Assembly (NCBI RefSeq): GCF_029223585.1
Contig: NZ_CP119424.1
Coordinates: 496,001-560,000 of the forward strand
Source: Photobacterium sp. DA100
GTDB taxonomy: Bacteria > Pseudomonadota > Gammaproteobacteria > Enterobacterales > Vibrionaceae
Direction of reading: 5' to 3'
DNA length: 64,000 nt
Part shown: positions 1 through 19,023 of the stretch, one piece after another
Layout: every line of letters begins with the position of its first letter
How positions within the stretch are numbered: the first letter of the stretch is position 1
Notes under the pieces: generated by a model
The model's database searches: none
Told to the model about the DNA's origin: nothing
Seen by the model: the letters and a program-made list of their open reading frames with translations, nothing else
Made by a program: the position numbers and the translations under genes

Positions 1-776
1 TTTTGTGTATCACGTGCGACCTCTAACCAGCTCTCTTTTTGTCCAGTCGAATAACGAGGAGAGCCAAAGGCTGAGGCGAAGAAGCGCACAACGGGAGAAT
101 CTGGGTTCATGATTGATTCGCCAGTTTCTTCATTATCTAGAGCAGTAGCATGGTTAAGAACATTTAAAACCGTAACATCGTTCCAAACTGTTCCTTTGAG
201 CTCTGGTAAGTATTCGGTGATTTTTTGGTTTGGGTCTACTTTACCCTCTTCAACCAGCATTGCGACTACTGTACCAACCGTTGTTTTCGCTGCGGATGCC
301 CAAATATGACGATCCGTCGGTTTCATGCCAGGGTAGGATTCATAGACAATTTCACCTTTATGAATCAACATAAAGCCTTGGGTACGAAATTGAGGGGCAG
401 ATAAATAGTCTTCCATCGTCATTTCGCCTTTCGTCTCAGTATGGACTGTCAGTTTTGCGAGTTCAGGCTTCAGGTTTTTAGTGAGAGGTTGATAATCATA
501 ACTAGGTGATACCACTGCTGTAGGCATAAACTCACTCATGTGCATGTTGTAGTAGAGCGAGTGATCTCCTCCCATTTGCCAGTGGAAGTTATTAAAGCCG
601 TCACGAGCAGCATCGACAAATTGATTGCTAAAAGAGTTCTTTGCGGCTTCGACCGGTAGCGTGACTTGAGCGCCTTCCGCTTTGAGTGCCGCTGCCACAG
701 GGTTTTCTTCTGTGGCAGTAGAAACCTGGCCATAAAGCATAGATCCAATAATAAGTGCGAGAGCTTGGGTTTTCAT
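1..776 (-). CDS. Serine hydrolase of the beta-lactamase/penicillin-binding fold, 3' end outside the window
   Basis: The reading frame opens at ATG 776 and stays open to the window edge, so about 258 N-terminal residues are visible and the C-terminus is missing. It starts with a hydrophobic signal-like stretch (MKTQALALIIGSMLYG). Near residue 160 it has the motif SAAKTT, which fits the SxxK active-site motif of class C beta-lactamases, esterases and DD-peptidases (PF00144); Ser would be the acylated nucleophile and Lys the general base. The downstream YxN and KTG motifs lie beyond the edge, so substrate class cannot be told. It is probably periplasmic. It is transcribed away from the broken AraC regulator at 859, with about 80 bases between the two starts, so that regulator may once have controlled it. 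A true beta-lactamase is possible, but many members of this family are esterases. Confidence 0.75.
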   Translation of the reverse strand, partial: MKTQALALIIGSMLYGQVSTATEENPVAAALKAEGAQVTLPVEAAKNSFSNQFVDAARDGFNNFHWQMGGDHSLYYNMHMSEFMPTAVVSPSYDYQPLTKNLKPELAKLTVHTETKGEMTMEDYLSAPQFRTQGFMLIHKGEIVYESYPGMKPTDRHIWASAAKTTVGTVVAMLVEEGKVDPNQKITEYLPELKGTVWNDVTVLNVLNHATALDNEETGESIMNPDSPVVRFFASAFGSPRYSTGQKESWLEVARDTQ

Positions 777-858
777 TATTTCGTCTCCTATTTGGTTATG
801 CGTCTATATTATTTGATAGTAGAATGGATTTTTAGGTCATATAGCGCCAAGGAGTGCC

Positions 859-1668
859 GTGTTAACTAATATTAATACCACTAGTTCCAATAACCTTAGT
901 CCCTTTTGTTCGGTTTTTCTGAAAACACAGAATTGAATAAAAAAACTCGCTGAGGTGCATCAAATCCCAGAAGATTTAACCAGTCGTACTGTGTGGTTTT
1001 TTTCACAGCAAGTAATATCGTTCCCCATGGCCATGATGCGCCATAGTAATAAAAGAGTTGGAATAGAAGTCGGAAAGCTAATAACTCTTGGTCAAATATC
1101 AACTTCGTTAGAAGAAAGCCTCAAGCAGTGTCAAGATTTGGGGGAAGCCATCGTAACCCTGATTAAGTTGATGCTCGAACTTAATAGTCACGTTGTCATT
1201 TGGGTAGACCAAATCGAAGGTCATTGGTATCTGTGTCATAGGGGGGCTATCACCCGTCTACTCCTGGCTTTGATCAGGCGGAGTGGTTTAGGTCTTTTGC
1301 TTTATTATCAATGTGCCGATTATTTATGGGTAAAGATTGGGTACCAGATCATGCGTTTATGAGTTTTTCTGAACACTTAACAAAAGGCTTACCAATTGGT
1401 TTTGCTAAAACAGCGTTTAGCTTTGACCATTCTTTCGGCGCAATTAGGATAGATCTTGATGATGGTTTTAAGCCGATTCCTCCTTCACCCGTAAGTGAAC
1501 TAGAGTGGTCGCAAAGGGTGAAACGTCTATCACAAACTTATGTTGTGTTACCATTTTTTACTGTTGATTGGTTTGCTAAATTTTTGAGTATGTCTGCTAG
1601 GACATTACAGAGACGGCTGGCAGAGCATGGGTTGACGGTGAAACAATTGCGAGATGAAGCGAGAAGAG
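859..1668 (+). pseudogene. Broken AraC-family transcriptional regulator
   Basis: A GTG at 859 preceded by AAGGAG (849-854) begins a frame that reads as the arabinose-binding-type N-terminus of an AraC regulator. It meets TGA at 934-936, then continues in the same frame with KKLAEVHQIPEDL. After about 1240, near a run of six G (1243-1248 region), the sense reading moves to another frame (PSTPGFDQAEWF through MSARTLQRRLAEHGLTVKQL). It ends inside the C-terminal helix-turn-helix at about 1668, where IS256-type sequence begins. A premature stop, at least one frameshift and loss of the second half of the DNA-binding domain make it non-functional. It is divergent from the serine hydrolase at 776. 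The exact position of the frameshift is an inference from where family-like sequence resumes. Confidence 0.75.
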
Positions 1669-1671
1669 ATG

Positions 1672-1866
1672 TTTGATGGTTATCTGAATATGGGTAGAAA
1701 TGGGCGCTTACCCAAGAAATGGACGATGCCGATTAGAAACTGGCGAGAAGCACTAAACCGCTTTGCGATTATGTTTGAAGACCGACTCACTGAATACAGT
1801 TACCCCGACAGTTACACAGAATTATTTACAGGGTCATATGTGCAGTTGAGAGGTGTTGAAGCATGA
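1672..1866 (+). mobile_element. C-terminal remnant of an IS256-family (mutator-type) transposase
   Basis: The frame encodes about 60 residues containing KKWTMPIRNWREALNRFAIM and FEDRL, which resemble the conserved C-terminal tail of IS256/IS285-type transposases (PF00872). No DDE catalytic core is present, so this is only the 3' end of the element. It is fused directly to the truncated AraC pseudogene: the junction lies at about 1660-1685, and the overlap of frames gives a chimeric ORF from 1654. This is the usual scar of an insertion followed by deletion. The family assignment rests on recognition of the tail motif alone. Confidence 0.6.
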
Positions 1867-1927
1867 GAGTTACACCTTTTGCGTTTTGATTTAAGATTCG
1901 ACACCTTTATCAAAACGGGTAACTCTC
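1865..1927. repeat. Imperfect inverted repeat next to the IS256 remnant
   Basis: GAGAGTTAC at 1865-1873 is the reverse complement of GTAACTCTC at 1919-1927, and CGTTTTGAT at 1882-1890 is the reverse complement of ATCAAAACG at 1909-1917. The arms are offset by 8 versus 1 bases. It starts at the stop codon of the transposase remnant, so it may include the right terminal repeat of the IS or a partner end. A transcriptional terminator is less likely because no T-tract follows. Confidence 0.45.
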
Positions 1928-1991
1928 ACTTGTTTCAAGTAGATGTGTCAGCTATTGTCTGAACTAATACAGATTAAACCATTTGATCTAA

Positions 1992-2582
1992 TTAGTTTAC
2001 TATGACACTAATCTTGGTTTCAGATTTTGCACCATTACTGTCGGTCGCAACCGCTTTGATTTCTTGCTCTCCAACTTTGTCAAGAACATGATTCCAGTAA
2101 CGATAAGGTGAGTGATTTTCAATCCTTACACTTTCACCATTAACAAAGAACTCAACGTTGGCAATGATTACACCTTCTTGGGTTGATTGAGCCGTAGCCT
2201 CAACTTTAGGAATGATGTCGCCCAAATAGTATTCTTTACCGTCAAAAGGGACCACAATTTCAACTTCTGGTGCAATAGGTACTTCAGTGTCTTTTACGAA
2301 CACTTTAATGATTGATTCTGATTTGGCACCTTTACTATCAGTCGCAACTGCTTTGATTTCGTGCTCTCCAACCTTATCCAGAACATGATTCCAGTAACGA
2401 TATGGTGAGTGATTTTCAACTCTAACGCTCTCACCATTTACAAAGAACTCAACGTTGGCGATGGTTACACCTTCTTGAGTTGAATGAGCCGTAGCATCAA
2501 CTTTAGGAATGGTGTCACCTAAACTGTATTCTTTACCATCATAAGGAACCACAATTTCAACTTCTGGTAAAATTGGAACTTC
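1992..2582 (-). repeat. Tandem duplication encoding the last two Ig-like domains
   Basis: Two copies with a 297-base period: 2286-2582 (99 codons) and 1992-2285 (97 codons plus stop). The protein copies differ at roughly a dozen of 97 aligned positions (for example PYDGKEYS versus PFDGKEYY), and long stretches are identical at DNA level. This indicates recent unequal recombination or selection to keep the repeats alike. The other Ig-like domains in the same protein are much more divergent. Confidence 0.9.
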
Positions 2583-5500
2583 AGAGTCCACACCGTAAAT
2601 AGTAATGGTTTCGCTGCTAGTTGCGCCTTGATCATCAATTGCTACTGCTTTGAGTGTATGCACGCCTTTGGTGACTTCCCATTCTGGAATTCGATTTGAA
2701 CCATGTGAAGTTTTTTTAACACTTTCACCATTGATGAACATTTCAAGGCTTTCAATTTCTCCATCTTCATCTTCAGCATAAGCCCTGATAACGATCAAAG
2801 AGCCGGTTTCAAACTGTTCTCCATTAGTCGGTCTATGGAACCAAACTGTTGGTGGTTTATTCGCTTCTACAGGTTTACCTGTAATGTTTACCTCTGACGT
2901 TGCTGTTGCCCCTTTATCATCGGTCGCGACGGCTGATAAAGTAAAGTTACCTAGACCAACGGTGTAGTTATTGTATTGATACGGAGGTTGTGTCACCGTC
3001 GCTAAACGTTTGCCGTTGACAAAGAACTCAACCTTTTCAACTTCTCCATTTTCATCATCAGCAATAGCTAAAATCCTTTCAATAACATGGCCTTCTTCAA
3101 ATTCAGCACCATTTGTTGGTTCAACAATGCTAACGGTTGGAGGCAGGTTATCCATTTCAACCCCCATAATAGTGATAGATGAAACACTCTTACCATTGTC
3201 GTTATCAATAGCTATGACATCGATTTTGTTTACACCTTCTTGGACAACAAAGTCTGTTAATCGGTAAGGTGCTTGATTCAAAATCTTTATGCTATTGTTG
3301 TTAACGAAAAACGTAACACTTTCAATTTCACCATCAGTATCCGTTGCATCAGCTTCGATAGTTATTTTACTACCTATAGGATATTTAGCTCCATCTGAAG
3401 GAGAGGTGATATTAACCACGGGTAATTCATTTTCACTATTACTTACTTTAATGAAGCTATTTTTTATTACCGTATCTGAATCATTGTCAGAAAATGCGGT
3501 TAACTTCACCGAGTGCTCACCAGGTGTATTGTAAGTGACAGTGGGGGATTTTGATGTACTGGTTGCAGGTGTACCACCTTCAAACACCCATTCCCAACGA
3601 TTAGCGTTATGTGAACTTTCATTAGCAAAGTTTACTGATTCGCCTAATCTGATTTCCTGCCTGATGGCGGAAAAATCAGCTTCTAGATCAGATGAAATAC
3701 CTATGTATGTCACTGGATTTGAAGGAATTACATCACCATTAACATCAACCGCTTTTGCAACTATGGTATGTTCACCTGTTGCTGAAACTTCCCAATTGTT
3801 CAAATTGTAAGGAGGATTGCGTCTTTTGCTTACAAAATCTCCGTTGATATAAAACTCAACGAAATCAATTTTCCCACCATTGTCATTAGTTTGTGATTTT
3901 ACCGTAAATATATGACCTTGATAGAATTGGATGTTATCAGTTGGCTCATAGATTTTAATCGTAGGTGGTTTATCCGCACTTTCAACGATAATCTTACCTT
4001 GCCAAGTTTCTTGATCGCTTTCTACATCGTTGCTTACCTTCAATGTAACATCATATACACCCTCTGAAGCATAAGTTACACTCGGTGATTTACCTGTGCT
4101 AGTGCTTGGTGAGCCACCAGGGAAGCTCCATTCATAATCAAGGTTATGACCCTGACTGCGATTAGAGAACTTGATGCTATCATCAGGCTCAATATTTGTT
4201 TTGTCAGCCTTGAAGCTTGCAAATACCGTATCTTTTGTTGTGTTAGCGTATTTGGCATCATCAAAGTACTCAACCAAGTTCAGATATTGGCGATTGACTT
4301 GTTTAATTGATGAAGTCAATTCCTCGTATGGGCGATGCCACATATCGAACATCCCTTTGTTTGAAACGCTTTCATTTTTAGGGTTGTCAATATGGTTGTT
4401 ATCTTGGTATTCAAACCACGTCCAGCCAACATTACCTTTACTTTGCATCCAAGTTAATGTCGCATTTTGGTAATAATGGCCACGATCTTTTTGAGTATTG
4501 GTAACTAAACCTGCACCTTCTATGTTGTCATGGTATTCAAAAGAAGTACCTTTGGCATAGAATGCAGAAACAAGCCATGGCTTACCGCCCCACTTAATCA
4601 TATTGTCCATGATTTCAGTCGGCTCACTCCAATAGCCAAAGCGGTTAACAGATAGAACATCCGCATGTTGCGCATAAGTTTCAACAAAAACTTTATTGGT
4701 TAATAGGTCGGTTTGGAATACGCGAGAGCCTAAATATAAGTGATTTGGTGCGTATTTTTTCATCGCAGCACTAACAGGTGCGTAGTAACTATCAACGTAA
4801 TGCCTAAAAAACTCTTCTTTCTCTAATTCAGTGATGTTGTCTATTGTTACAGGATCTGAATTACCGCGAAACTCTTGCACCCAATTTACGGCATACAAAT
4901 AGTTAAAGTGAGTTTTTGACTCTTCAAGGCTTAGCTTTAACACTTCCACATCAAAAGGCATTTCAATATCGACATACAAGCCTAAGAAGCGCGGGTCGCC
5001 ATTATATTTTGATAAGTATTCACGTAGATCATTGTCAATAAAATCGGCATGATCTTCATGAAAAACAGGTAGGATTTTCAGATCTTTTGGACGCGGAAAA
5101 CCAAGATAATCAGTAAACTCAGTAAGGGCATTTCTTACTGGGGTATAGTTCATCTTGTGCTCAGTCCTAACCATCTGCTCAGGTGTAACCGGGCCACCCC
5201 CAGTGTAAATACCAATGGATTTTAGATAAGGGAATTGTGTTTCAGCCCAGTGGTCAAAGTCTCTAAAAGGGGAGAACTCATCGAATGGGCCTGGTCTTAA
5301 TGCCACCACACTAGACATAAAAGTTAAATGTCCATTAGGGTCAATCATCCACCAGCGGCCATTAATTTCTTCCACACGGAAAAAACCAGTCGCTTCGTAC
5401 TGGGTACTTAAGAACCCGCCATATTCTGACAGTGGGGTTGATAGATCTTGCTGATAACCAGCGAGGTTATCAACAATAACAGTTGGCTCTTTCGTCCACA

Positions 5501-5648
5501 CAAAGCCCGCATTAGATTTGGCCCTGTCTACATGAATGTATTTTTGGACATATTTTTCTGGGATAACCGCATAGCTGCGCAGAGGAATACCCACTATGAA
5601 AGATAGCAAGGTTAATTTTGCTATCTTTGATTCAAACTTTTTTTTCAT
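1992..5648 (-). CDS. Secreted agarase-like glycoside hydrolase with PKD and Ig-like repeats; catalytic nucleophile apparently missing
   Basis: The ATG at 5648 gives 1218 residues with a signal peptide (about 1-27, ending LRSYA). A GTG four codons upstream is an alternative start. Residues about 45-445 resemble clan-A agarase/porphyranase-type hydrolases (NGRWWMIDPNGHLTF, then a TIM-barrel-like region ending GWTWFEYQDNN). The putative acid/base Glu229 is present in YVDIEMPF. At the strand position where relatives usually have TEFYAKG, this protein has VSAFYAKG, so Ala362 replaces the expected nucleophile Glu. Downstream are PKD 1 (about 480-560), an Ig-like domain, PKD 2 (about 655-740) and five Ig-like repeats of about 95 residues, the last two nearly identical. 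It is probably exported by Sec and anchored to or bound to polysaccharide. It may be a catalytically dead binding protein or use another residue. Agar as the substrate is inferred from family resemblance only. It lies 261 bases downstream of tatB. Confidence 0.65.
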   Translation of the reverse strand: MKKKFESKIAKLTLLSFIVGIPLRSYAVIPEKYVQKYIHVDRAKSNAGFVWTKEPTVIVDNLAGYQQDLSTPLSEYGGFLSTQYEATGFFRVEEINGRWWMIDPNGHLTFMSSVVALRPGPFDEFSPFRDFDHWAETQFPYLKSIGIYTGGGPVTPEQMVRTEHKMNYTPVRNALTEFTDYLGFPRPKDLKILPVFHEDHADFIDNDLREYLSKYNGDPRFLGLYVDIEMPFDVEVLKLSLEESKTHFNYLYAVNWVQEFRGNSDPVTIDNITELEKEEFFRHYVDSYYAPVSAAMKKYAPNHLYLGSRVFQTDLLTNKVFVETYAQHADVLSVNRFGYWSEPTEIMDNMIKWGGKPWLVSAFYAKGTSFEYHDNIEGAGLVTNTQKDRGHYYQNATLTWMQSKGNVGWTWFEYQDNNHIDNPKNESVSNKGMFDMWHRPYEELTSSIKQVNRQYLNLVEYFDDAKYANTTKDTVFASFKADKTNIEPDDSIKFSNRSQGHNLDYEWSFPGGSPSTSTGKSPSVTYASEGVYDVTLKVSNDVESDQETWQGKIIVESADKPPTIKIYEPTDNIQFYQGHIFTVKSQTNDNGGKIDFVEFYINGDFVSKRRNPPYNLNNWEVSATGEHTIVAKAVDVNGDVIPSNPVTYIGISSDLEADFSAIRQEIRLGESVNFANESSHNANRWEWVFEGGTPATSTSKSPTVTYNTPGEHSVKLTAFSDNDSDTVIKNSFIKVSNSENELPVVNITSPSDGAKYPIGSKITIEADATDTDGEIESVTFFVNNNSIKILNQAPYRLTDFVVQEGVNKIDVIAIDNDNGKSVSSITIMGVEMDNLPPTVSIVEPTNGAEFEEGHVIERILAIADDENGEVEKVEFFVNGKRLATVTQPPYQYNNYTVGLGNFTLSAVATDDKGATATSEVNITGKPVEANKPPTVWFHRPTNGEQFETGSLIVIRAYAEDEDGEIESLEMFINGESVKKTSHGSNRIPEWEVTKGVHTLKAVAIDDQGATSSETITIYGVDSEVPILPEVEIVVPYDGKEYSLGDTIPKVDATAHSTQEGVTIANVEFFVNGESVRVENHSPYRYWNHVLDKVGEHEIKAVATDSKGAKSESIIKVFVKDTEVPIAPEVEIVVPFDGKEYYLGDIIPKVEATAQSTQEGVIIANVEFFVNGESVRIENHSPYRYWNHVLDKVGEQEIKAVATDSNGAKSETKISVIVN

Positions 5649-5909
5649 GAAAATCACCACTAATAGTTAATTAATTTAGGAACAATTTCAGTGTGATGAG
5701 ATCGTTACCTTATTTGTATAGTGCATGTTGCATCAAAAATTTAAAGTCAATCCCTTGTTTGGCTTTTGCGCTAAATGAAAAAGAAAAGGATTTGGCCTAG
5801 ATATAATCTTACAGACATCATGTTGAAAAGTGGGTAACTGGCAGGTCAGGTACTAATTTAGTGTATGGCTGCATATTTTCAATGTTAGACATGAAAACTT
5901 CTCTTAACT

Positions 5910-6245
5910 CTATTTCTTATCGGTTGTCGCTGCATGCTGCTCGTATTTATTCCCAACGCAAGGAAGCTGAACTTCGGACGTTGTTCTTTTCAGATCTTGC
6001 ATTCTGTCACTATGTTCTGATATGAGTTTTTTCCCTCCCATATAGTTTGGATATTTCGAGTTTATCTGATGTTCCAGAAGTTTTGGTTCCTGATTTAGCT
6101 GGTTATTAAGCGAAAGCGCCGTCTTACGAACAGCATCAAGCCAACGGGATAATGTCCGTATCACGATTGGTAGGCGCTCAGGGCCCACTACAATCAGTCC
6201 TACCAAGGAGATCTGTATCAATTCCCAAAAACTGATATCAAACAC
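5910..6245 (-). CDS. tatB: Orphan TatB, twin-arginine translocase receptor subunit
   Basis: This 111-residue protein starts at GTG 6245 and has the TatB signature: a short N-terminal membrane helix beginning MFDISFWELIQISLVGLIVV, the GPERLP hinge and then an amphipathic helix (RTLSRWLDAVRKTALSLNN). TatB works with TatC to recognise RR-signal peptides. The C-terminal tail is polar and shorter than in typical chromosomal TatB. It lies 75 bases downstream of tatA, and no tatC follows: 261 bases later the agarase-like gene starts. It therefore depends on a TatC encoded elsewhere or is a relic. Its neighbour DUF1501 protein is a predicted Tat substrate, which suggests a dedicated pair. Confidence 0.88.
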   Translation of the reverse strand: MFDISFWELIQISLVGLIVVGPERLPIVIRTLSRWLDAVRKTALSLNNQLNQEPKLLEHQINSKYPNYMGGKKLISEHSDRMQDLKRTTSEVQLPCVGNKYEQHAATTDKK

Positions 6246-6320
6246 GTATCAAACCTACTCTTTATTTTGATGACTCTTCTTGGCAGGCCCATCAAACTGC
6301 TCCGCAAGTTTCTTTTGCAC

Positions 6321-6503
6321 CTAGTCTTTATCAACAAATTCATTATCTTTTTCGGTGGAAGAACCTTCATCGTTGATCGTATTTTTGAAGCCCTTTACGG
6401 CGGAACCTAAGTCCCCCCCAAAAGTACGCAACTTATTGGTTCCGAACAATAGAACAATGATTAATGCAATAATTAGTAATTGCCAAATACTGATACCACC
6501 CAT
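6321..6503 (-). CDS. tatA: Orphan TatA, pore-forming Tat subunit, shortened by an in-frame TAG
   Basis: Sixty residues from ATG 6503 with GAGG upstream. They include the N-terminal helix ([18 protein letters not shown]), the FGTNKLR hinge and the amphipathic helix [13 protein letters not shown]. TatA oligomers form the conduit for folded proteins. The frame stops at TAG 6321-6323, but it remains open for 21 further codons (VQKKLAEQFDGPAKK...) to another TAG at 6255-6257. The full length would be about 82 residues, matching the usual TatA size and Lys-rich tail. The visible tail is thus probably an ancestral C-terminus removed by a point mutation. The tail is the least conserved part of TatA, so the 60-residue form may still work. 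It is followed by tatB; DUF1501 lies 252 bases upstream. Confidence 0.88.
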
Positions 6504-6755
6504 ACTTGTTTTACCTCAACTAGTTGTGGTTAATTACGAACTCCCCCATCTGTAGTGCATACTTAATGATGATTATCGAAAGGTATGAAACCTACGTGAT
6601 CCAATTTTAGCACTTTCTTTTAGCTACGATGGCTGCGCTGATTTACAGCCAATCGCTAATCAGTAATTTGGGCATATAGCCAGATGGGCAAGAAACTCGC
6701 GAAGCTTTGATTTTCTAAACCAGTACTCATAGTATACGGCTTAGGAAGTAGCCGT

Positions 6756-8099
6756 TTATTGGTTCAAACAGCTCCGAAAGAGTGGCAGTGTGGCTGGAGT
6801 AATACCACTACCCGAATTGGGATTTAGCGCAGGAAACAATGTGTTGATAGCGGTGTTACTTAGACCTAACCATGCTAGTAGTGATGCGTGTACCTGATCT
6901 GTTGATAGTGTTGGGATTACACGGGCTCGTGAAATCAAGTAAGGGCTTTGTGGTGATAAGTCAGGATATTCACCATAGAATTTTTTGCCAATTACATCAC
7001 CGCCCATAATCAATGAGTGGCTTGCCCATCCATGATCCGTTCCCTTTGTGCCATTAGGGATTAATGTGCGTCCAAAGTCGGAATGAGTAAATGTAGTCAC
7101 GTGATGTGATAACCCATGTACATTTAGAGCATTCTGGAAGGCAGCCATGGCTTGTGCTACTTCACCTAAAAGTCTTTCTTGCGTTTCAGCTTGGTTATTA
7201 TGGGTATCAAAGCCACCAATTTTACAACTAAAATATTGAGCTGGCTGTTGGAATTGCTCACGATTTAGTATCATTTTAAATACGGCTTCTAACTGTTCAC
7301 CAATCTTAGTGTCTGGGAACGATGTGCCTGTATTTGTTTCAAAAATGCCTTTATAGAGATCGTAATCTTCTAATGCATTTTGAGCTAAATTTGTATAGTG
7401 CCTTTCAAAAGGACTGCTATAGGCTTGGCTATTCTGTAATTTTTGATACAAGTCTCTTGATATATCATTGTTAAACATATCTTTTGGTAGGCTTGAACCA
7501 ACAGAATTAGATTGTGCCTGCAAGCAGTTAGTCCAAATCTGTAACCCACCCATATCATACATAGGCGCATTGATCTCAGAAGCCCCAAGGACGATAGCTG
7601 CAAGTGCCCCAAAACCTTCTTTAGATAGCTGTTGTGTACAATGCGACTGGATCATTTGAGACTGATGGCTATGACTAAACAAGTGTGAAGGGCGAGTTAA
7701 GTCACTGTAATTTGATGCCGTTACTTTCTCTGTAAGTGTGCCAACATTAAGAATGGCTGCTAATTGGCCATCTTTCCAGTATGGTTCCAGTGCCTCCATT
7801 GCTGGGTGCATAGCTAATTCAGTTGGGTTGCTCTCGCTATTCAGTGGAATTGTGCTGCTCTTGTCAATAGCAAGGTAATCTCGCAAAGTTTGATATTGAG
7901 TGTAAGCAGAGCTTTCTGTCGGAACAAGCATATTGTATCCATCATTACCGCCGGCAAGATCAATACCAACGATAGCTTTATAGCCACCATCACAAGATGC
8001 TAGATTACTTGCTAGAGCAGGAAAAGCAGATAAATTTAGAGCGGCGACACCGGTGCCCGCTGCGCCCATTTGTAAAAAACGACGACGAGTAAGTTTCAT
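6756..8099 (-). CDS. DUF1501-family protein with a twin-arginine signal peptide
   Basis: A 447-residue protein starting at ATG 8099. The N-terminus KLTRRRFLQMGAAGTG followed by a hydrophobic run and ALA is a clear Tat signal. The mature part matches the DUF1501 family, related to sulfatase/alkaline-phosphatase-like folds, with GGNDGYNMLVP near the start, GGFDTHNNQ in the middle and HSDFGRTLIPNGTKGTDHGW further on; the His/Asp residues of these motifs could bind metal. Its biochemical function is not known. The gene follows the DUF1800 gene with a 6-base gap, a pairing common in proteobacteria, and precedes tatA. The protein is most likely exported folded, perhaps together with its DUF1800 partner, which has no signal peptide of its own. 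Confidence 0.88.
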   Translation of the reverse strand: MKLTRRRFLQMGAAGTGVAALNLSAFPALASNLASCDGGYKAIVGIDLAGGNDGYNMLVPTESSAYTQYQTLRDYLAIDKSSTIPLNSESNPTELAMHPAMEALEPYWKDGQLAAILNVGTLTEKVTASNYSDLTRPSHLFSHSHQSQMIQSHCTQQLSKEGFGALAAIVLGASEINAPMYDMGGLQIWTNCLQAQSNSVGSSLPKDMFNNDISRDLYQKLQNSQAYSSPFERHYTNLAQNALEDYDLYKGIFETNTGTSFPDTKIGEQLEAVFKMILNREQFQQPAQYFSCKIGGFDTHNNQAETQERLLGEVAQAMAAFQNALNVHGLSHHVTTFTHSDFGRTLIPNGTKGTDHGWASHSLIMGGDVIGKKFYGEYPDLSPQSPYLISRARVIPTLSTDQVHASLLAWLGLSNTAINTLFPALNPNSGSGITPATLPLFRSCLNQ

Positions 8100-8105
8100 T
8101 TTTAA

Positions 8106-9581
8106 TTACCTCTGAATAGTGAATTCTGGAGAAATGAGTGAGTTCATAATGAGTGCTTTTATGTCTTGAGTTCGTCCTTCATGTCTTCTAGTACATTGAC
8201 TTAGAAAATCAAAATAAGACTGTTTCGCATAGTCACTCATTTGGAAATCAAATAGATTCTCATTGAGATAATTCACCACCCCTTCATCATCAAAATTGTT
8301 ATATAGCTCAAATAAGATTGGGTCTATATACTGCTCTCTCTCTTCGCTTTGAAGTCGCATATATGAGCCAAATAAACTGCCGTGTTCATAAAGGTTGTGC
8401 CACTGATATACGTTAAACTCAGGTGCTACTAAATTTTTGAATAGCTCATTATTCGGCTTATCATCTGGTTTATAGTGATAAAAAACAGAAGGCGCACCCA
8501 TTGGCATTAAACGGCTGTATGCTGCTATCGCTGGCCAAACCTTATTTTCATTTGTGCGTCTAAGGCCAAAAGCTTTCATTGCATGGGTAAAGACAATAAT
8601 AGGATCTCTCACCTTTACACACTTATCATCCGTTCTTAATGCATCCTTATCAGTTAAGATGGCTTTAGCTAATACCAGTAAATCACCACGAGACTCACTA
8701 AATGCATTGCGTACACGTCGAATGTAGTGAGGGCTCGGATTACTGGTTACCATCTTAGTGATAAAAAACTTGGCGACAAAAGTATAAAGCTGCTCACGAC
8801 TCATTAATCTGTCTATTAGCATTTCAAGGTCTTGTTCCGCTGTTTGACCTGCAGGAAACGTTTTACCCAGAATAACTTTTGACCCCATATCATGTTCACC
8901 AGTCGGGACCATAGGTGCAGAGTATTTAATTGGAGTTGTGCGATCATGCCATTCCCAGCCAGTGAATACACGTGCTAATTCTTCGATATCTTCTTGAGTA
9001 TAAGCAGGTCTTTCATTACCGTTTTCATCATACTTGACGCTACCATCCCAAGCTAATTGGGTAGTACCAAGTGTAAATAGTTGTAGCAGCTCTCGAGCAT
9101 AGTTTTCATCAGGAGCAGTGCTCTCATTTGATACGTTATCCACGAACGTTAGATATTCGCCCATAATTGGTGATGTGGAAACAAAACGGATCACATCTGC
9201 AAAGTTACCAAGCCCATTGGTTAACAGGCCATCATAGTAATTGCACATGTATTCACGTCGACTATGGGGCGTTAGAGCAAGATCGTTTGTACTTACAACA
9301 AACAATTGCGATAGCACATAGGCTATGCGCTGTCTTAATAGGTCTTTCCCTTCCATGTTCAGGGCATCCCAGCTTGAGACATAAGCGTAAACACCATTCC
9401 AAGTATCTGCCGCTGCTGATTCCTTGTAGAGCTCGCGCCATGAACTTGCAGGAAGAAAGGCTTGCTCATCAATCCAATTTTCAATTCCACCTAGAGCAAT
9501 TACTTGCTCAACGTCTTCTTTTCGATAACCTAGGGTACACTGCTTTAGGCTTCTCGCGGCATTTATATAATCAATATTCAT
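8106..9581 (-). CDS. DUF1800-family protein
   Basis: A 491-residue protein. The ATG at 9581 is chosen because GAGGAG lies eight bases upstream; an in-frame GTG at 9596 is an unlikely alternative. Family landmarks are RQRIAYVLSQLFVVS, PIMGEYLTFVDN, ENYARELLQLFTLG and ARVFTGWEWHD, then GSPSVF-type sequence (here GAPSVFYHYKPDD). The family has no established activity. No signal peptide or membrane segment is visible. Export, if it occurs, might be by hitch-hiking on the Tat-signal DUF1501 protein encoded 6 bases downstream; that is an inference. A paralogue with the same partner order is at 42018-43517. Confidence 0.87.
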   Translation of the reverse strand: MNIDYINAARSLKQCTLGYRKEDVEQVIALGGIENWIDEQAFLPASSWRELYKESAAADTWNGVYAYVSSWDALNMEGKDLLRQRIAYVLSQLFVVSTNDLALTPHSRREYMCNYYDGLLTNGLGNFADVIRFVSTSPIMGEYLTFVDNVSNESTAPDENYARELLQLFTLGTTQLAWDGSVKYDENGNERPAYTQEDIEELARVFTGWEWHDRTTPIKYSAPMVPTGEHDMGSKVILGKTFPAGQTAEQDLEMLIDRLMSREQLYTFVAKFFITKMVTSNPSPHYIRRVRNAFSESRGDLLVLAKAILTDKDALRTDDKCVKVRDPIIVFTHAMKAFGLRRTNENKVWPAIAAYSRLMPMGAPSVFYHYKPDDKPNNELFKNLVAPEFNVYQWHNLYEHGSLFGSYMRLQSEEREQYIDPILFELYNNFDDEGVVNYLNENLFDFQMSDYAKQSYFDFLSQCTRRHEGRTQDIKALIMNSLISPEFTIQR

Positions 9582-10227
9582 ACAGCTCCTCAACACTTAA
9601 CATCTTATTTACACCACACTCACGGCACTAAGTTTTCTATAATTACCTGCTTATTCGAGGTTATTGATTTTCGTCAGTAATATAAAACTCCCTAGTTAAA
9701 TAAACTTTTTCAAGTCAGAAGAACTTAAAACGTATTCGATTATTAGTTCGCAACACGTGCCACTGAAAATAGGACAACAAAATATGAAGTTTTAGGACCA
9801 ACATCAGCCTGTCACACAAACTTTTACAAACTAGAACTTGAAAATGTTTCATAATGTAACAAGTTCAATATCGAATAATGGCTTTGGTACAACCATGCTA
9901 GAAGGGAGGTGCGTCAATCACATCAAAGCCCTTCCAAGCGACAAGGCTTTCGTGAGCTTCTCGGTACTTGATAGATAACTGTTGAAGTAGAAAATTGGCA
10001 TGAGACTAAGACGGTTAATGGGGGTATCAGATCGTAGCTTCTTGATTTAGTTCCACCGATTTACGAAACATATCAAAGTTTCATATGAACTAAGTAAATA
10101 AATCTTATAAAAGAGCTTTGTTTACTTTGTGAACAAAGGAACTATCCTTATACCAAAGAGTTGACAGCGAACATTAGAATCAATTACTTACCTGCTGGAT
10201 GTTCGAGTAACAACATGGAGATTAAAA
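9582..10227. other. Non-coding stretch with an unassigned C-terminal gene fragment
   Basis: There is no complete gene here. On the minus strand, 9898-10005 is an open frame of 35 codons ending in TAG (HANFLLQQLSIKYREAHESL then VAWKGFDVIDAPPF). It has a natural protein-like composition and looks like the end of a gene whose 5' part is gone. I do not recognise it. The rest is AT-rich and should contain the promoter of the DUF1800-DUF1501 operon. Confidence 0.4.
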
Positions 10228-10794
10228 TTGGCAGAATTTTTCAAAGGTAATCAAGTTGTGAAGTTGCTTTGTCTAGCGGCTGATGATTTGAAATTAGTAC
10301 AAGGTGGAAGTGCTTTGCAGCTTTACAACCCTAGTATAAACTATAACGTCATAGATAATATACATTGCTTTTACGAATCGTACTTTAAGCTAATAAGCAT
10401 CAATCATATAGACAAAATTGTAAGATATGTACTATCTTCAGATGTGGCCTTTATTGACAGGGAAAATGAATTAAACAGCCTGGCTAGTGTGTGTTCTTTA
10501 TTATCTTCAGCTACTCCCGAGTGTCAAAATATATTTATTACTTTTAGTTGTAATAAGATTGTAATCAGTTGCATTAGAAGCTCAAGTATTCCTTTTTCAT
10601 ATTTTGCTTACACTTTAAGTTGTTCTTTACTTATTGAAACACTTAATCTATTTACTAAGCCACGTCGTAATATAACTATTGATCTATATAAACCATTGAA
10701 GTTTTATTTCCCTAATGTAAATTATCGTCAACATAAGAATGTTGAAGATGGACGTTTGTTTGATATTGTGATTCATCAGAATACAAATGGTTGA
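10228..10794 (+). CDS. Hypothetical protein, possibly a remnant of an AraC-type N-terminal domain
   Basis: The frame is open from 10165 to the stop at 10792-10794; the only usual start is TTG 10228, and no good ribosome binding site is seen. An out-of-frame ATG at 10215 leads to a 11-codon dead end, so the 5' end may be damaged. The 188 residues show no signal peptide or membrane helix. The C-terminal half (LIETLNLFTKPRRNITIDLY, then KPLKFYFPNVNYRQHKN) loosely resembles the ligand-binding domain of AraC-type regulators, but no helix-turn-helix follows. It lies directly beside IS3 debris. Both the function and the expression are doubtful. Confidence 0.35.
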   Translation: MAEFFKGNQVVKLLCLAADDLKLVQGGSALQLYNPSINYNVIDNIHCFYESYFKLISINHIDKIVRYVLSSDVAFIDRENELNSLASVCSLLSSATPECQNIFITFSCNKIVISCIRSSSIPFSYFAYTLSCSLLIETLNLFTKPRRNITIDLYKPLKFYFPNVNYRQHKNVEDGRLFDIVIHQNTNG

Positions 10795-10806
10795 CTGAAA
10801 GCTTTA

Positions 10807-11271
10807 TTAGGACGGTGATGTGCGGATACCATCAAGGCCAGAGGACAAAGATTGCTCGCGAATAGTCCGGATACATTGACGCAAACGACTACTGAAATCG
10901 AACCTCTCTTGTAATTTAGGAGCAGACCATACATTTTGTAGTACTTCCTTGTCCATCTTTAGTTGCTCGATCTCCTTCTTGAGCCTGGAGATCTCCCTTT
11001 GTTCGTCAGTAATGGGCTTGGCTTAAACAGGATTGCCATCCTGTTCATCACGAACCTGGCGAACCCATTTGCCAAGACTGGAAACACCGACCTCAAGGGC
11101 CTTGGCAACATCAGTAACAGAGCGGCCCTAGTTAATAACCATCTGAACAGCTTCCATCTTGTACTCGGCACTGAAGCGGCGTCGTGATTTCTTAGTTATT
11201 TTGTCACCCGTAGTAATGCGAGATGATGATATCACTTGTTATCAGGTGGTCAAATTTAGTGTGCCACTACA
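10807..11271 (-). mobile_element. Decayed IS3-family element: left end and orfA pseudogene with two stops
   Basis: Read on the minus strand, TGTAGTGGCACACTAAATTT at 11271 downward looks like the left end of an IS3-group element. The orfA frame follows from about 11214: KKSRRRFSAEYKMEAVQMVI, a TAG stop, GRSVTDVAKALEVGVSSLGK, WVRQVRDEQDGNPV, a TAA stop, then AKPITDEQREISRLKKEIEQ and LKMDKEVLQN. These are the helix-turn-helix and leucine-zipper parts of an IS3 OrfA (PF01527). After LQN the frame runs on with unrelated residues to TAA 10807-10809. No OrfB (DDE integrase) remains. Two internal stops and loss of orfB make it inactive. Confidence 0.8.
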
Positions 11272-11573
11272 CTTATCCCAGTTGTATGCTGCTACTTCAT
11301 AACCCGTCAGGTAGTCCTTTTCAGAAGAGTTCACAATATCATGATGGGGTAACCTATCGTCCCAACCTAGTACTTGTTAGCTGCAACCTTTTCCGCTGGG
11401 GAGCAGCTGACGTTATCCTAGATGCACTACAAGCGGACGCTATGAGCAATGATGATGACTACCTTGATGTCTTCTACACCATAGAAAGGAATTTGCACTA
11501 CGCAGACTATCCCGGCGCCTCGGCAAATGCCGTTATATCACTCACTCCAAGAGGCTTTCATTCTAGAGACTGA
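11272..11573 (+). other. Unassigned fragment beside the IS3 end
   Basis: An open frame begins inside the IS end (11223) and continues to TGA 11571-11573, but the part that could be host sequence starts at 11272. It encodes GVTYRPNLVLVSCNLFRWGA followed by an acidic stretch (DALQADAMSNDDDYLDVFY) and has a higher GC content than its surroundings. No start codon with a ribosome binding site is present outside the IS. It may be the end of a gene interrupted by the IS. I do not recognise it. A further 157 bases to the next gene hold nothing I can assign. Confidence 0.3.
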
Positions 11574-11730
11574 TTGTTGGGCATATTATAAAAGAAAAAA
11601 GTGCCACCCTCTCTTGAAAGTGGCTTTATTTGCAAGTAATAAGTGCGGATGATTTTTTATTATAATATAAATTCGCTATGCTAAAAGAAATTCAGTGAGT
11701 GTAGTGATGTTCACTGATAACTGCAAGCCG

Positions 11731-12048
11731 CTATTTTATTGGTGCTTTGGTCAAAGACTCATCAAGCTGATCATTGATCTCTATATAGTTTTTTCCTTCA
11801 ACATCAAAAATTGATGGCTTCTCTGTTATTGGGTTTTCACCTGTCCAGAACTCAATAGAGTTAAAAACCAGATAGTCGACAGTTGTCGTTGCGGCATAGA
11901 CTGGTGCCATAGCGATGTTTAATCCGCCACGAGCATAACGGTTATCGACAGCATCCATATTGAACTCCATCGTTTTATTCGTAACGGCCATTTGCCCGGC
12001 ACAGCCTGATAATGTAAGTAAAGCAAATAGTGATAAAGCAGCTTTCAT
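11731..12048 (-). CDS. DUF3332-type lipoprotein
   Basis: A 105-residue protein from ATG 12048 with GAGGAAG just upstream; the longer frame from 12081 lacks such a site. The signal peptide MKAALSLFALLTLSGC ends in a lipobox (LSGC), so it is probably a lipid-anchored envelope protein. The mature part contains VDNRYARGGLNIAMAPVY and FNSIEFWTGENPI, which I recognise from the DUF3332 family, common in Vibrionaceae and of unknown function. It is a single gene. Confidence 0.75.
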   Translation of the reverse strand: MKAALSLFALLTLSGCAGQMAVTNKTMEFNMDAVDNRYARGGLNIAMAPVYAATTTVDYLVFNSIEFWTGENPITEKPSIFDVEGKNYIEINDQLDESLTKAPIK

Positions 12049-12335
12049 AACTTCCTCAAATTTTATTTTGTATAGGTTCACTTCATGAATCTATACGACA
12101 TATAGTAAAATTGAATTGAAATATACTTTTAACTTAACCTCAATATTGAATTTTCATGCTCCCAAAATTGAGTAATATAATCCAGGGTTTTGTATCAAGG
12201 TTCATAATAGGAATAAAATCAATGATTATAATCAAATATGAGTTTTCAGTGGCTCGTTAATTAAAATTTAAAAAAGTTATTTTAAAAGGATAGTAACACC
12301 AAAAATATAACGACGTATAGAAAAGGTATAAATAA

Positions 12336-12884
12336 ATGAACCACGGATTTTCACCAAAAGCGGCTATGTTAGCATGTTTGCTAATTTCATCTGCATCAAT
12401 GGCTAGTGACAGAAATCAGTCAATTGATGCCGGTGTTACATTTATTGGTGATATGGAAATGGCTACACTAGGGTATAGTAAAACACTCGCTCATAACATT
12501 GTTACTAGTGCAGGTTTCATGATTGGAAATGATGAATATGATTTCAATTTGCCTGAAGGGATGAGTGATGATCAAGATGCATGGGGACTTTATACATCTG
12601 TAGGATATAAAATCGAAATCGCTGAATTTGATATTATACCAAAAATTAGCCTTAACTATTTAAATGCGGATGTGAATTTTAAAGATGAGAGTGGCTCTGA
12701 ATTTAGTGCGTTAAACATCGATAATGTCTATGGTTCAATTGGTGGAACAGTTAACTGGCGTATGGTGGGAATTACAGTTGACTATGGTAAGATACAAGAG
12801 AGCAATGTCATGCTCCCAGGACAATCAGAACCAAATGATATAGAGGAAGATGTGGTTCGTGTAATGGCTAGTTTCAATTTTTAA
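12336..12884 (+). CDS. Small outer-membrane beta-barrel protein
   Basis: A 182-residue protein with AAAAGG upstream of ATG 12336. The signal peptide (residues about 1-23, ending ASMAS) is followed by alternating hydrophobic/polar strands (GVTFIGDMEMATLGYSKTLA, YTSVGYKI, NVYGSIGGTVNWRM) and the C-terminal aromatic residue expected of a Bam substrate (VRVMASFNF). It is most likely an eight-stranded barrel of the OmpA-barrel/porin-like superfamily; ligand unknown. It is monocistronic, with a strong terminator at 12953. Confidence 0.72.
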   Translation: MNHGFSPKAAMLACLLISSASMASDRNQSIDAGVTFIGDMEMATLGYSKTLAHNIVTSAGFMIGNDEYDFNLPEGMSDDQDAWGLYTSVGYKIEIAEFDIIPKISLNYLNADVNFKDESGSEFSALNIDNVYGSIGGTVNWRMVGITVDYGKIQESNVMLPGQSEPNDIEEDVVRVMASFNF

Positions 12885-12952
12885 TTAGTTAAAAATATAA
12901 TATAAGCTCTTATCAACTTGATTTAGTAGTAGCCATATTATTAGATGATAAA

Positions 12953-12985
12953 AAACCTCTTCGGCATAACCGAAGAGGTTTTTTT
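12953..12985 (+). terminator. Rho-independent terminator of the beta-barrel gene
   Basis: AACCTCTTCGG and CCGAAGAGGTT form a near-perfect stem around a CATAA-type loop, followed by seven T. Confidence 0.93.
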
Positions 12986-13073
12986 GAATATAATTTTTAT
13001 GGGTGATGAATGTTATTATTTCAGCTATATTAAACCTGTACTGCAATGAGGCAACGGCTATTACGAAATTAAA

Positions 13074-14123
13074 TTAGTTAAACTTTACGGTTACTGGAAG
13101 TCCTTCAATTTCTAACTGTTCGGGGATTCTTTCATCAAGAACTAACTTTACTTTTAGCATGCTTTTCTGCCCTTCAAAGGGATCGGCCAGAGAAGATGGA
13201 ATCTTATCGGATAACTCAACCTTTTGTCCTACATGAGCCATCAAAGTATGGCCACTAGCAAATTGTATTTCGGCCTTTTTTCCTAGCTGTACTTGTTCAA
13301 TGAACTTAGGTGAAACATAGGAAATAACTTGATAATGATATGTGCTGGAATACAGAGCTAACGGCATCTGCTTAAAAACTCTATCGCCTTTTTTTACCAA
13401 TATATCAATGATTTGTCCGTTTTTTGGTGCTGTCGGTTGAAGTTGGCTCAATTTACTATTCATCTCTGCCAACTCACGATTAATTTCATTTTTCGCCATC
13501 GATAGGGGGCCTGAAGATGAAAGCTCTTGGATTTTTCTCATCTCATCAATTTTTTTCTGCAAGGCCTGTTGATAGCTCAGTTTAGACTGGGTGAAAATTT
13601 GCAGTACTGCCGCAAACTCTGCGCTAGAGACTAGGTTCTGTGTTTTGTACTTCTCATATTCAAGGTAAACTTTTTCTTGTTTTCTAGTAGCCTCAAGTGC
13701 TATGCGAATTTCTTCATTAAGTGCAGTGATTTTTACCTTATTATAGCTCTCCCAATCAAACTCTAGCTGCATTAATTGATTTTGTCGTTCAGCAATACTT
13801 GATTGAAGCGATGACGAGATGACTTTCATAAGCTTGTTTCCTTGTTTTACGTCTTCGCCGATGCTGAAATAAATCTCATCAATCGTACCTTCGCCGCTGG
13901 CAACGATAAGTTGCGGTTCAGTTGTAACAATGCCAGGTGCCGATGTGACTATCCAATCATGGCTTATATACCAAATTAATAAAGCAACAGGACTAAATGT
14001 TAATAGCAGGATAAAGTACCAGCGTATCTTAAATGCGACCCTCGTAACCGAAGTATATGGGACCTTTACGCCTGCATCTATTTGTGCATTATTCTTTTTA
14101 GGTGAGTTGAAGACTACTTTCAT
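13074..14123 (-). CDS. HlyD-family membrane-fusion (periplasmic adaptor) protein
   Basis: 349 residues with a single N-terminal membrane helix (about 32-52, WYFILLLTFSPVALLIWYI). It has a split biotinyl-lipoyl-like domain (SGEGTIDEIYFSIGEDVKQG and NGQIIDILVKKGDRVFKQ) interrupted by a long coiled coil (about 105-215), then a beta-barrel region. HlyD-type adaptors link inner-membrane transporters or synthases to the outer membrane. Here the partner is the glycosyltransferase upstream, whose stop overlaps this start (ATGA, 14120-14123), so it is probably involved in polysaccharide synthesis or export, comparable to the Alg44-like role in alginate synthesis. No PilZ domain is seen. Confidence 0.82.
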   Translation of the reverse strand: MKVVFNSPKKNNAQIDAGVKVPYTSVTRVAFKIRWYFILLLTFSPVALLIWYISHDWIVTSAPGIVTTEPQLIVASGEGTIDEIYFSIGEDVKQGNKLMKVISSSLQSSIAERQNQLMQLEFDWESYNKVKITALNEEIRIALEATRKQEKVYLEYEKYKTQNLVSSAEFAAVLQIFTQSKLSYQQALQKKIDEMRKIQELSSSGPLSMAKNEINRELAEMNSKLSQLQPTAPKNGQIIDILVKKGDRVFKQMPLALYSSTYHYQVISYVSPKFIEQVQLGKKAEIQFASGHTLMAHVGQKVELSDKIPSSLADPFEGQKSMLKVKLVLDERIPEQLEIEGLPVTVKFN

Positions 14124-15493
14124 TTATTCCTCTCGCTCTTTGTTACTTTCCATAAATGAAATTTATGCCCTCGTTTAATTACCCACCAAGGCGCCATTCC
14201 ACTCTCTTCGTGCGAACGCCTGAATAATTCATTAAGTATTGCTACGGTTGCCCACATCCGGATTGAAAATGTATAAATAGGGTAGGCGAGCAGCCACAAC
14301 AACAACTTGAGATCCTTAAAGGGTTTTTCGGAGATTACGACAATAATGTAAATGTAACTGAAAGCACTAATTATCAAATGAATAATATATAGCAGCAGCA
14401 ATATTGCAGCGATGTATTTTGAGGGGTAGGTGAATACTAACCACCACAGGTGAATTGTCATCAAGAGCGGCAAAAGAATGCTTTGAACAATGCCAAAGAC
14501 TAACGTATAGATGAATGTCTTCCAGCCCAGAAGTCGTGGTGTTAATGAAAAAATATGCTTGCGAAGATAAAGAAATAACAAATCACCATCCCAGCGAAGC
14601 CTCTGTTTTGCAAGGCTTATCACAGTATTTGGGACATTAGTGTATCCTACCGCCAGAGGAGAAAACGGAATTCTCAGATTAGGGTGTCTTCGCAGGTAAT
14701 GCTTTATTCTAATCGTAAGGTCAAGATCTTCAGCTGTGTGTGTATCCCAGCCTCCAATATTAACAAGAAAATCACGCCGGAATGCTCCGAATGCACCCGA
14801 GATGTTGTTTATTAGGTTCCATTCGCTCAATCCAGTTTTGCACCCAAGGAGAGATATTATATATTCAATTCCTTGCATCCTAGTCACTAGGCTGTCATTG
14901 AGATTACGTACTCGCAATGCCCCGGCAACGGCTGGTACATTGGGATCATCGAACGTGTGGATAATTTCATCAACCATATTATTATCGAAAGAAGTATCAC
15001 CATCTACATTGATAATAATTTCTCCCTTAGCAATCGCTAAACCAGAGTTGAGAGTTGACACACGTCCGCCACGTTGCCATTTTGGTAGGATAACCAGCTC
15101 GCGTTCGGGATTATTTTTAAAACTACCTTTGCTGCAAAGTGCTGCTTGATAGGTTTCTGGATTCTGCGAAGCACCGTCGATAACAGCGATGATTTCAATC
15201 TTTCCTGGGTAACGTTGTTCGCGCAACGAATCAATCGTGATAGTTATCGAGTCTCCTTCCGAATAGCAAGTTACGATACATGATACATTGGGTAATCTCT
15301 TGTGATAATGTTGCGGCTTGCTTTGGTATCTTATTATGGCCCATTTAAATAACCCGCTATAAGTAAGAAGCATAAGCGGTAGTTCAAAAGCTAATAACAT
15401 GGGGAAAAACAGGACCAATATATATAAGATGTTACTAGTGTTCCTGCATAGCTCAACGAGGATATAGATTATTCCGAGCAGCCACTCAACCAT
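14120..15493 (-). CDS. Processive family 2 glycosyltransferase, membrane-bound (cellulose/PNAG-synthase-like)
   Basis: 457 residues from ATG 15493 (GAGGAAG nine bases upstream, within the end of the previous gene). N-terminal membrane helices (about 5-45) are followed by the GT-A domain: SCIVTCYSEGDSITITIDSL, INVDGDTSFDNN (DxD-type), GAFGAFRRDF, HTAEDLDLTIRI (the TED-like catalytic Asp) and KQRLRWDGDL (QxxRW polymer-binding motif). Four or so C-terminal helices follow. These are the hallmarks of processive synthases that make and extrude a beta-linked polymer. Which sugar is used cannot be read from the sequence. It is the central gene of a three-gene operon with a zinc-ribbon/GGDEF-like protein upstream and an HlyD adaptor downstream. 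Confidence 0.88.
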   Translation of the reverse strand: MVEWLLGIIYILVELCRNTSNILYILVLFFPMLLAFELPLMLLTYSGLFKWAIIRYQSKPQHYHKRLPNVSCIVTCYSEGDSITITIDSLREQRYPGKIEIIAVIDGASQNPETYQAALCSKGSFKNNPERELVILPKWQRGGRVSTLNSGLAIAKGEIIINVDGDTSFDNNMVDEIIHTFDDPNVPAVAGALRVRNLNDSLVTRMQGIEYIISLLGCKTGLSEWNLINNISGAFGAFRRDFLVNIGGWDTHTAEDLDLTIRIKHYLRRHPNLRIPFSPLAVGYTNVPNTVISLAKQRLRWDGDLLFLYLRKHIFSLTPRLLGWKTFIYTLVFGIVQSILLPLLMTIHLWWLVFTYPSKYIAAILLLLYIIHLIISAFSYIYIIVVISEKPFKDLKLLLWLLAYPIYTFSIRMWATVAILNELFRRSHEESGMAPWWVIKRGHKFHLWKVTKSERNK

Positions 15494-16829: not shown

Positions 16830-17141
16830 ATACCCATATCCTTTTACTAGCGGTATAAAATAATAAAATCACTTCATTGTTAATTAAGTCCATGGTTGTA
16901 CTTAAAATTATCAAATTAGAGTTTACAAATTTATACGAAACTAAGGTAAATATACTATTGATTAAAATGAATATGTACAGTTTAAATGTTGAGTGCTTTA
17001 CCAATCAAAAGTGAGCTCATGGTTGTATGCATAATCAATTTTTATTCAGCAAATGTTAAGTTTCATAAAGCATATAAAAGTTAGTTTCTTTTATATGAGT
17101 TTACTATTTTTCTCCAATCGACGGATACGAGTAGGTTAAAA
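16830..17141. other. AT-rich intergenic region
   Basis: About 310 bases between divergent genes. It should hold the promoter of the glycosyltransferase operon (minus) and that of the small gene at 17142 (plus). I see no distinct operator, hairpin or RNA gene. Confidence 0.5.
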
Positions 17142-17396
17142 ATGAGATTAATGTCAATTATGTTAGTCACTTATGGGTTTGCTTTACTATCTATGCCATT
17201 GACTGTTGTTATCGTTGCTTTTGCATCACATTTTTTATATTTCAATCATGACCCTGGCTTACCTGGTGGGGGGTATAAAAATTTACTATCTCAAATTTTC
17301 ATTATTGAACATGAAGATTTAGAGCGGGACAGCGAAGCTCCTACAAGCTGGAATGAACTCATTGACTTAAGTAAGTATAATAAAACCAAGTTTTGA
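17142..17396 (+). CDS. Small membrane protein, unknown
   Basis: 84 residues. The N-terminal 35 form one hydrophobic helix (MLVTYGFALLSMPLTVVIVA, then FASHFLYF), and the rest is polar (HEDLERDSEAPTSWNELIDL). The ribosome binding site is weak (AGTAGG, 11 bases upstream). It is divergent from the polysaccharide operon and has no recognisable family. Coding capacity is plausible because the hydrophobic-then-charged pattern fits a real single-pass protein, but it could be spurious. Confidence 0.4.
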   Translation: MRLMSIMLVTYGFALLSMPLTVVIVAFASHFLYFNHDPGLPGGGYKNLLSQIFIIEHEDLERDSEAPTSWNELIDLSKYNKTKF

Positions 17397-18992: not shown

Positions 18993-18998
18993 AACAAT

Positions 18999-19023
18999 AA
19001 GGCCATGATTTAATTATGGCCTT
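18999..19023 (+). terminator. Stem-loop after the DUF1254 gene
   Basis: AAGGCCAT (18999-19006) pairs with ATGGCCTT (19016-19023) around a nine-base loop. The following T-tract is poor (GTCTATA), so the terminator is probable rather than certain. Confidence 0.65.

Follow-up and report, generated by a model that had tools for sequence, protein, structure and literature searches.

Layout of the locus

The window analysed here, a stretch of 64,000 nucleotides from Photobacterium sp. DA100 (family Vibrionaceae), corresponds to positions 496001-560000 of contig C2 in a two-contig genome of 6.01 Mb. On its minus strand lie a tatA and a tatB gene of the twin-arginine translocation (Tat) system. There is no complete tatABC operon at this place, as no intact tatC stands beside the pair and tatC is represented by nine codons. 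The tatA copy (6321..6503) encodes 60 residues, keeps the transmembrane and amphipathic parts and ends with an in-frame TAG at 6321-6323. It is preceded by a leader (6504..6564) that aligns with the spacer between ubiB and tatA of the main tat locus, and 3′ of the stop the alignment still recognises the TatA tail of relatives (6255..6320). The tatB copy (5910..6245) starts with GTG and encodes 111 residues with a diverged tail and 56% identity to the main TatB. The tatC stub (5866..5892), which by alignment is homologous with the 5′ end of the main tatC, begins 17 bases after tatB and runs into the end of a mobile element, which by sequence match is of the IS481 family and ISVvu4-like (5782..5865). 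The TAG that ends tatA and the nine-codon stub at the mobile-element end are details which the sequence-only reading of this stretch did not contain. Both products match TatA_B_E (PF02416; 2e-12 for tatA and 7e-5 for tatB). The NCBIfam models identify the first as a TatA/TatE protein (TIGR01411, tatAE, 69.1 bits against a cut-off of 53.9) and the second as a TatB protein (TIGR01410, 59.2 bits against 56.5).

The other genes of the locus lie on the same strand. A DUF1800 gene (PF08811, 3.3e-64; 8106..9581) starts with an ATG at 9581 within a longest open frame from a GTG at 9596. The DUF1501 gene (PF07394, 6e-33; 6756..8099; 447 residues) follows 6 bases past it. The Pfam matches of the DUF1800, DUF1501, tatA and tatB products are all above cut-off. 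The N-terminus of the DUF1501 protein reads MKLTRRRFLQMG with the signal MKLTRRRFLQMGAAGTGVAALNLSAFPALA, that is, TRRRFL plus a hydrophobic stretch. A clear twin-arginine signal had been claimed for this protein, and the claim holds with TIGR01409 (17.4 bits, above the cut-off of 16.7), while Pfam TAT_signal (PF10518) with 15.6 bits remains below its own cut-off of 22.7. On the other side of the pair is an agarase-like gene of 1222 residues with PKD and bacterial Ig repeats (1992..5660). In the PDB its product matches 5t3b over residues 46-467 (1e-38) and the beta-agarase 4bq2 (2.7e-19), both of which we take to be GH50 enzymes; from these matches the gene appears to be related to solved GH50 enzymes. 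The minus-strand order DUF1800, DUF1501, tatA, tatB and agarase-like gene is thus as first described, with all five genes in place.

Origin of the tatAB pair

When the whole genome was searched with PF00902, a single TatC was found at C1:54176-54808, on the other contig and inside a complete tatABC operon located after ubiB. PF02416 finds four TatA/TatB proteins, namely the main pair and the window pair. The sequence-only reading had stated that tatC is missing at the locus and had suggested the use of a shared TatC. The first point is confirmed by the only PF00902 match being on the other contig, and a system to borrow from does exist in the genome.

The main tat locus and the window copy agree at 486 of 700 positions, from just after ubiB to codon nine of tatC. 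The DNA identity of about 70% extends across the ubiB-tatA spacer, tatA, tatB and the start of tatC, noncoding parts included. The homology ends at the same points when the copy is aligned with the main tat loci from 17 further genomes of the genus, an alignment of which eight rows were inspected. Its position in the tree, with weak local support, is next to the clade formed by its own genome and G124, G127, G130 and G133. At 12 sites this clade and five outgroups are fixed differently; the copy has the state of the clade at nine, that of the outgroups at one and neither at two. It shares six of nine states that are private to the clade. Alignment limits, tree position and diagnostic sites all indicate that the window tatAB is a duplicate of the tatABC of its own clade and not an independent tatAB.

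Loss of tatC at a mobile-element junction

From position 5865 towards lower coordinates there is a match of about 80% to a repeated end which occurs at five places in genome G032. At least three of these copies lie some 40 bases away from the end of a contig. The same end is also matched in G000, G124 and G060. Plasmid records match these 80 bases at 82%, at the edge of transposase genes annotated as IS481-family, ISVvu4-like. We considered that the bases past the stub might be decayed tatC, and this is ruled out by the match to repeated mobile-element ends. Stub and element end are directly adjacent at the junction. The missing tatC is thus a truncation after nine codons and not a matter of design. 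The simplest account would be the insertion of an IS481-type element followed by a deletion, where the junction itself is seen and the agent is deduced.

Selection on the remaining genes

The TatA of the window has 60 residues compared with 81-90 in the genus relatives compared, and the frame past the TAG still resembles the lost tail. Selection was measured by counting changes relative to the main copy at the three codon positions. The counts are 4/2/20 for TatA residues 1-47 (chi-square p=1.3e-5) and 30/22/59 for TatB (chi-square p=3.6e-5). In a neutral simulation of 5000 runs tatB stayed open in 0.4%, with an identity of at most 55% against the 56% observed. Because of these counts and the simulation, the substitution pattern shows that purifying selection acted on tatA and tatB along much of the branch; some of the branch may predate the arrival on the island. 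The signal covers the branch as a whole, including any time before the loss of tatC. The TatB tail, in turn, has drifted (21/18/41). Comparison with 20 other TatBs shows S instead of their G at residue 5 of TatB, and Q instead of their L, V or M at residue 11, located in the transmembrane helix. Together with the drifted tail, these two residues would count against present function.

One may therefore ask whether the pair is dead, that is, whether TatA and TatB are neither made nor active now and the frames are open through recent decay. The loss of tatC, the TAG in tatA, the drift of the TatB tail and the mobile-element debris would all fit. The strong constraint on TatA 1-47, however, does not, and the stop takes away only the variable tail. 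In Escherichia coli, TatB shortened to about 50 residues has been reported to export native substrates (PMC9436932), so that the drifted tail need not be fatal. TatE, a short TatA-like protein of the same organism, has been reported to substitute for TatA (PMC6708511). We consider a dead pair to be possible yet doubtful.

The island and the neighbouring genes

The guanine plus cytosine (GC) content of fourteen 2-kb steps across window positions 1-28000 is 0.34-0.42, and about 0.40 for the island, compared with 0.53-0.55 at the main tat locus. When window positions 1-20000 were compared with four sister genomes and G099, with at most 40 candidates taken per genome, the matches listed were confined to tat, to short repeats and to diverged sequence at 66-79%. 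The GH50 domain of the window is found in one of 52 genus genomes, its own (E<=1e-15), and in three of 329 family genomes (E<=1e-10). Among the best 80 of 481 named DUF1501 relatives the closest come from Vibrio, V. neptunius, V. harveyi and others, at 57-58%. Two further stretches of the window have matches in related genomes. A sequence of about 62 bp (19019-19082) is present there in many copies of 84-97% identity, and 11057-11274, probably a mobile element, matches several places, some of them at contig ends.

The sequence-only reading had drawn attention to the gene order DUF1800-DUF1501-tatAB, and we looked for this order in relatives. Two samples of DUF1501 loci were used. The first consists of the named loci of the best 80 of the 481 relatives, with flanks of up to 10 kb (19 of these loci are shorter than 15 kb). 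The second comprises 41 loci from the genome search, including the window's own, with flanks of about 1.5 kb; at least two of these coincide with named loci. The queries were TatA, TatB and TatC of Vibrionaceae. They recovered tat in 11/11 control loci, all from Gammaproteobacteria, and a distant TatA from other phyla could escape them. DUF1800 accompanies DUF1501 in 77 of the 80 named loci and in 41/41 loci of the genome search. In their flanks tat was found at 0/80 of the named loci and at 0/40 of the others besides the window, so no second case of the order was found and a conserved order DUF1800-DUF1501-tat is rejected for the loci sampled. Nor is there in these loci the conserved linkage of tat and substrate by which a dedicated Tat system of the TatAdCd-PhoD type would be recognised. 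The genome itself has seven DUF1501 genes (E<=1e-40), and only the window gene has a tat neighbour; five of the six others were examined with their flanks. Another of the seven, without tat, lies in the window together with an upstream gene that is DUF1800-like by position (40243-43517 for the two). DUF1800-DUF1501 is a conserved, already known pair which at the other loci sampled goes without tat. The pair has been linked to bacterial chitin synthases, and the twin-arginine motif of DUF1501 is in print (PMC5122149).

The copy could instead be tied to the GH50 gene and not to DUF1501. This idea draws on G110 (Vibrio sp. 10N.286.49.B1), where GH50 genes on both sides enclose a second, independent tatABC and share its orientation. 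Besides the window, however, this is the only one of 44 GH50 loci with tat in its flanks, and a conserved linkage of tat and GH50 is thereby rejected. The 44 loci are 40 chosen from the search matches plus four others, several of them from one genome. Moreover, our predictor of Tat signals (see below) calls no GH50 frame Tat-like, neither in the window nor at the G110 locus. We regard a tie to the agar locus as very unlikely; with two cases, the neighbourhood of tat and GH50 genes is suggestive at most. A common origin of the two copies was also considered and is ruled out, as the G110 copy is Vibrio-like. The G110 operon itself (L039, 4972-6401) is a complete tatABC whose TatB is shortened to 87-88 residues. 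Nearby are a porphyranase-like gene and a gene for a PhoD-like protein that has the signal TRRHTL.

Accessory tat sets in the Vibrionaceae

Two TatC matches were found in 18 of 329 Vibrionaceae genomes. Seven of these were excluded: in G043, G142, G213 and G223 the main copy is split or broken, G151 and G326 have fragments, and in G073 the TatC match is distant and the other genes of the contig look mitochondrial. The eleven remaining genomes, the window and one Aeromonas plasmid give 13 accessory loci, with G215 represented by the record of a Vibrio maritimus plasmid. Tat signals were called with a home-made predictor in its looser version, as the stricter version missed clear cases. A gene with a Tat signal lies within 500 bp at six of the 13 loci, or 5/12 without the window. 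The five neighbours are an amidase (G005), an arginine-deiminase-like protein (G017), a phosphoesterase with a lectin-like domain (G130), an amidohydrolase (G292) and a molybdopterin oxidoreductase (Aeromonas media pE31A). In G292 the accessory tatA is at 8897 and the gap to the Tat-signal gene is 93 bp. Within the same 500 bp the predictor called none at G212, G269, G013, G110, G214 (at a contig end), G265 and the V. maritimus plasmid. By eye we would add a 1520-residue protein with SRREFL in G212 and a KR variant in G269. On the V. maritimus plasmid a DUF1501 gene lies 9.7 kb from the accessory tat.

As controls, a Tat-signal neighbour within 500 bp was counted for 12/493 genes of GH50 loci, 5/73 of solitary-tatA loci and 12/56 of DUF1501-rich loci. 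At 21 main tat loci there were 0/81 Tat-like frames, and a Tat-like frame lies within 2 kb of 375 of 2800 random 1.3-kb intervals taken from 57 other loci. The chance of at least 5/12 is p=0.0002 if the background is 5%, and p=0.015 if it is 13%, as in the random intervals. The counts are suggestive of accessory tat operons in Vibrionaceae often adjoining Tat-signal genes.

Several of these loci deserve description. The 374-kb plasmid of V. maritimus BH16 (NZ_CP090440.1; L281, 14772-16262) carries a complete extra tatABC, with a giant LamG-like gene and DUF1501 downstream and DUF1800-DUF1501 about 12 kb upstream. On A. media pE31A (L282, 3254-7433) tatA and tatC come shortly after the Tat-signal molybdopterin oxidoreductase and a NapC/NirT cytochrome. 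Solitary short tatA genes with open frames of 63-77 codons are present in several genomes of the family (L041-L044, L046-L048, L050, L051, L053, L054), and at L046 a Tat-signal M28 peptidase gene is near.

Twelve loci with an extra tatA but no second tatC were searched with the accessory TatA, TatB and TatC, and a TatB-like gene was found in one, that of G091, a genome of the window's genus. Here (L045, 3913-4302) a tatA of 61 codons from a GTG and a tatB of 64 residues are about ten bases apart. The genome has one TatC match. An arginine-deiminase-like gene with the signal NRRNFF lies 704 bp upstream on the same strand and a LysR-type gene downstream; the G017 cluster, with tatA, tatC and tatB, contains relatives of both. 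Apart from the window, the G091 pair is the best candidate for a TatAB set with a borrowed TatC.

These comparisons bear on the proposal of the sequence-only reading that the window TatA and TatB, with a shared TatC, serve the adjacent DUF1501 protein specifically. Part of this stands. The two frames remain open and bear the mark of past purifying selection, a complete tatABC exists elsewhere, Tat-signal genes adjoin accessory sets more often than they adjoin genes at GH50 or solitary-tatA loci, and in G091 a clean, close-set tatA-tatB without tatC lies near a Tat-signal gene. On the other hand, tatC ends after nine codons at a mobile-element end, the stop removes the TatA tail, S5 and Q11 depart from the 20 other TatBs, the gene order does not recur at the 80 named and 40 other DUF1501 loci and only one of the seven DUF1501 genes of the genome has tat beside it. 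Against the looser background, moreover, the proportion of 5/12 reaches only p=0.015. A dedicated or biasing role of the window pair is possible, with G091 as a parallel, but it is not the best reading, and service to the DUF1501 protein specifically seems unlikely to us.

Proposed history and meaning

We consider it likely that the window tatAB is a remnant of a complete accessory tatABC operon, whose TatA and TatB act, if at all, via the main TatC. We suggest that this came about in the following steps. The housekeeping tatABC of the clade would have been copied and the copy placed on a low-GC, strain-specific island beside the Tat substrate DUF1501. The copy would have evolved fast under purifying selection. 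Then an IS481-type element could have cut in after codon nine of tatC, which was thereby lost. The duplication, the truncation of tatC, the stop in tatA and the past selection are seen at the locus; an earlier complete operon, the element as agent of the loss, the export route and a minor role at present are inferred. As the pair has no TatC of its own, the leftover TatA, with 60 residues about the size of TatE, and TatB could act only by joining the TatC from the other contig. Most likely the DUF1501 protein is exported by the main Tat translocase, and the contribution of the spare subunits would be at most minor.

Several observations weigh against this reading. The attachment of the copy in the tree has weak local support and its branch measures 0.93, compared with at most 0.04 for the sister tips; for both reasons it is possible that the copy arrived only after evolving in another genome. 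In a search of 5.8 billion proteins no relative with the same copy and an intact tatC was found, so that the complete ancestral operon is deduced from the stub; the next best match of the window TatB among 5 listed has 47% identity over 54% of the length. A promoter scan of the locus was no better than shuffled sequence, and a terminator scan likewise gave no excess over shuffles. Finally, the G091 pair has the shape of the window pair and no visible scar, and no convincing TatC-like match was found in its 8.5 kb (best E 1.8). A tatAB without tatC can thus persist without visible damage.

On a wider view, marine accessory tat operons might travel on islands and plasmids with single substrates, some of them shedding TatC while their TatA and TatB persist and bias the shared TatC in favour of the local substrate. 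The window and G091 would then be two stages or two lines. We think this rather unlikely. The broader pattern of extra tat operons next to Tat-signal genes, with at least one clean tatAB pair lacking tatC, would make two questions testable, namely what leads some bacteria to retain several Tat sets and whether a shared TatC can be redirected by TatA and TatB on their own. Independently of this, what looks like a two-gene Tat set can turn out to be a truncated duplicate, and caution is advisable when orphan tat genes are taken as special systems.

Comparison with known systems

Accessory Tat operons are a known kind, and the window holds a further member; a literature search for "second tat operon" together with tatABC gave no match. 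The DUF1800-DUF1501 operon linked to chitin synthases has the same gene pair and twin-arginine motif as the window, but the available text of PMC5122149 does not mention tat genes such as the tatAB found here. The pairing of tat and substrate resembles TatAdCd of Bacillus subtilis, reported to be co-expressed with PhoD, its one known cargo (PMC6708511). TatAdCd, however, comes with a TatC and forms a complete minimal translocase, whereas the window set is without TatC. TatE of E. coli, described as an additional short TatA-like protein (PMC6708511), resembles the 60-residue TatA. It stands at a separate locus, however, whereas the window tatA precedes tatB and a tatC stub, which indicates duplication of an operon. 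The orphan tatA-tatB of G091 shares with the window the lack of tatC and a Tat-signal gene nearby. It differs in having no visible scar, in its Tat lineage (its TatB has its best match in G214, with 41%) and in the family of the substrate. With the housekeeping tatABC of Vibrionaceae, located after ubiB, the window copy has gene order, leader, the GTG start of tatB and about 70% DNA identity in common, and it departs from it by the missing ubiB, a tatC of nine codons, the stop before the tatA tail and its place on the other contig.

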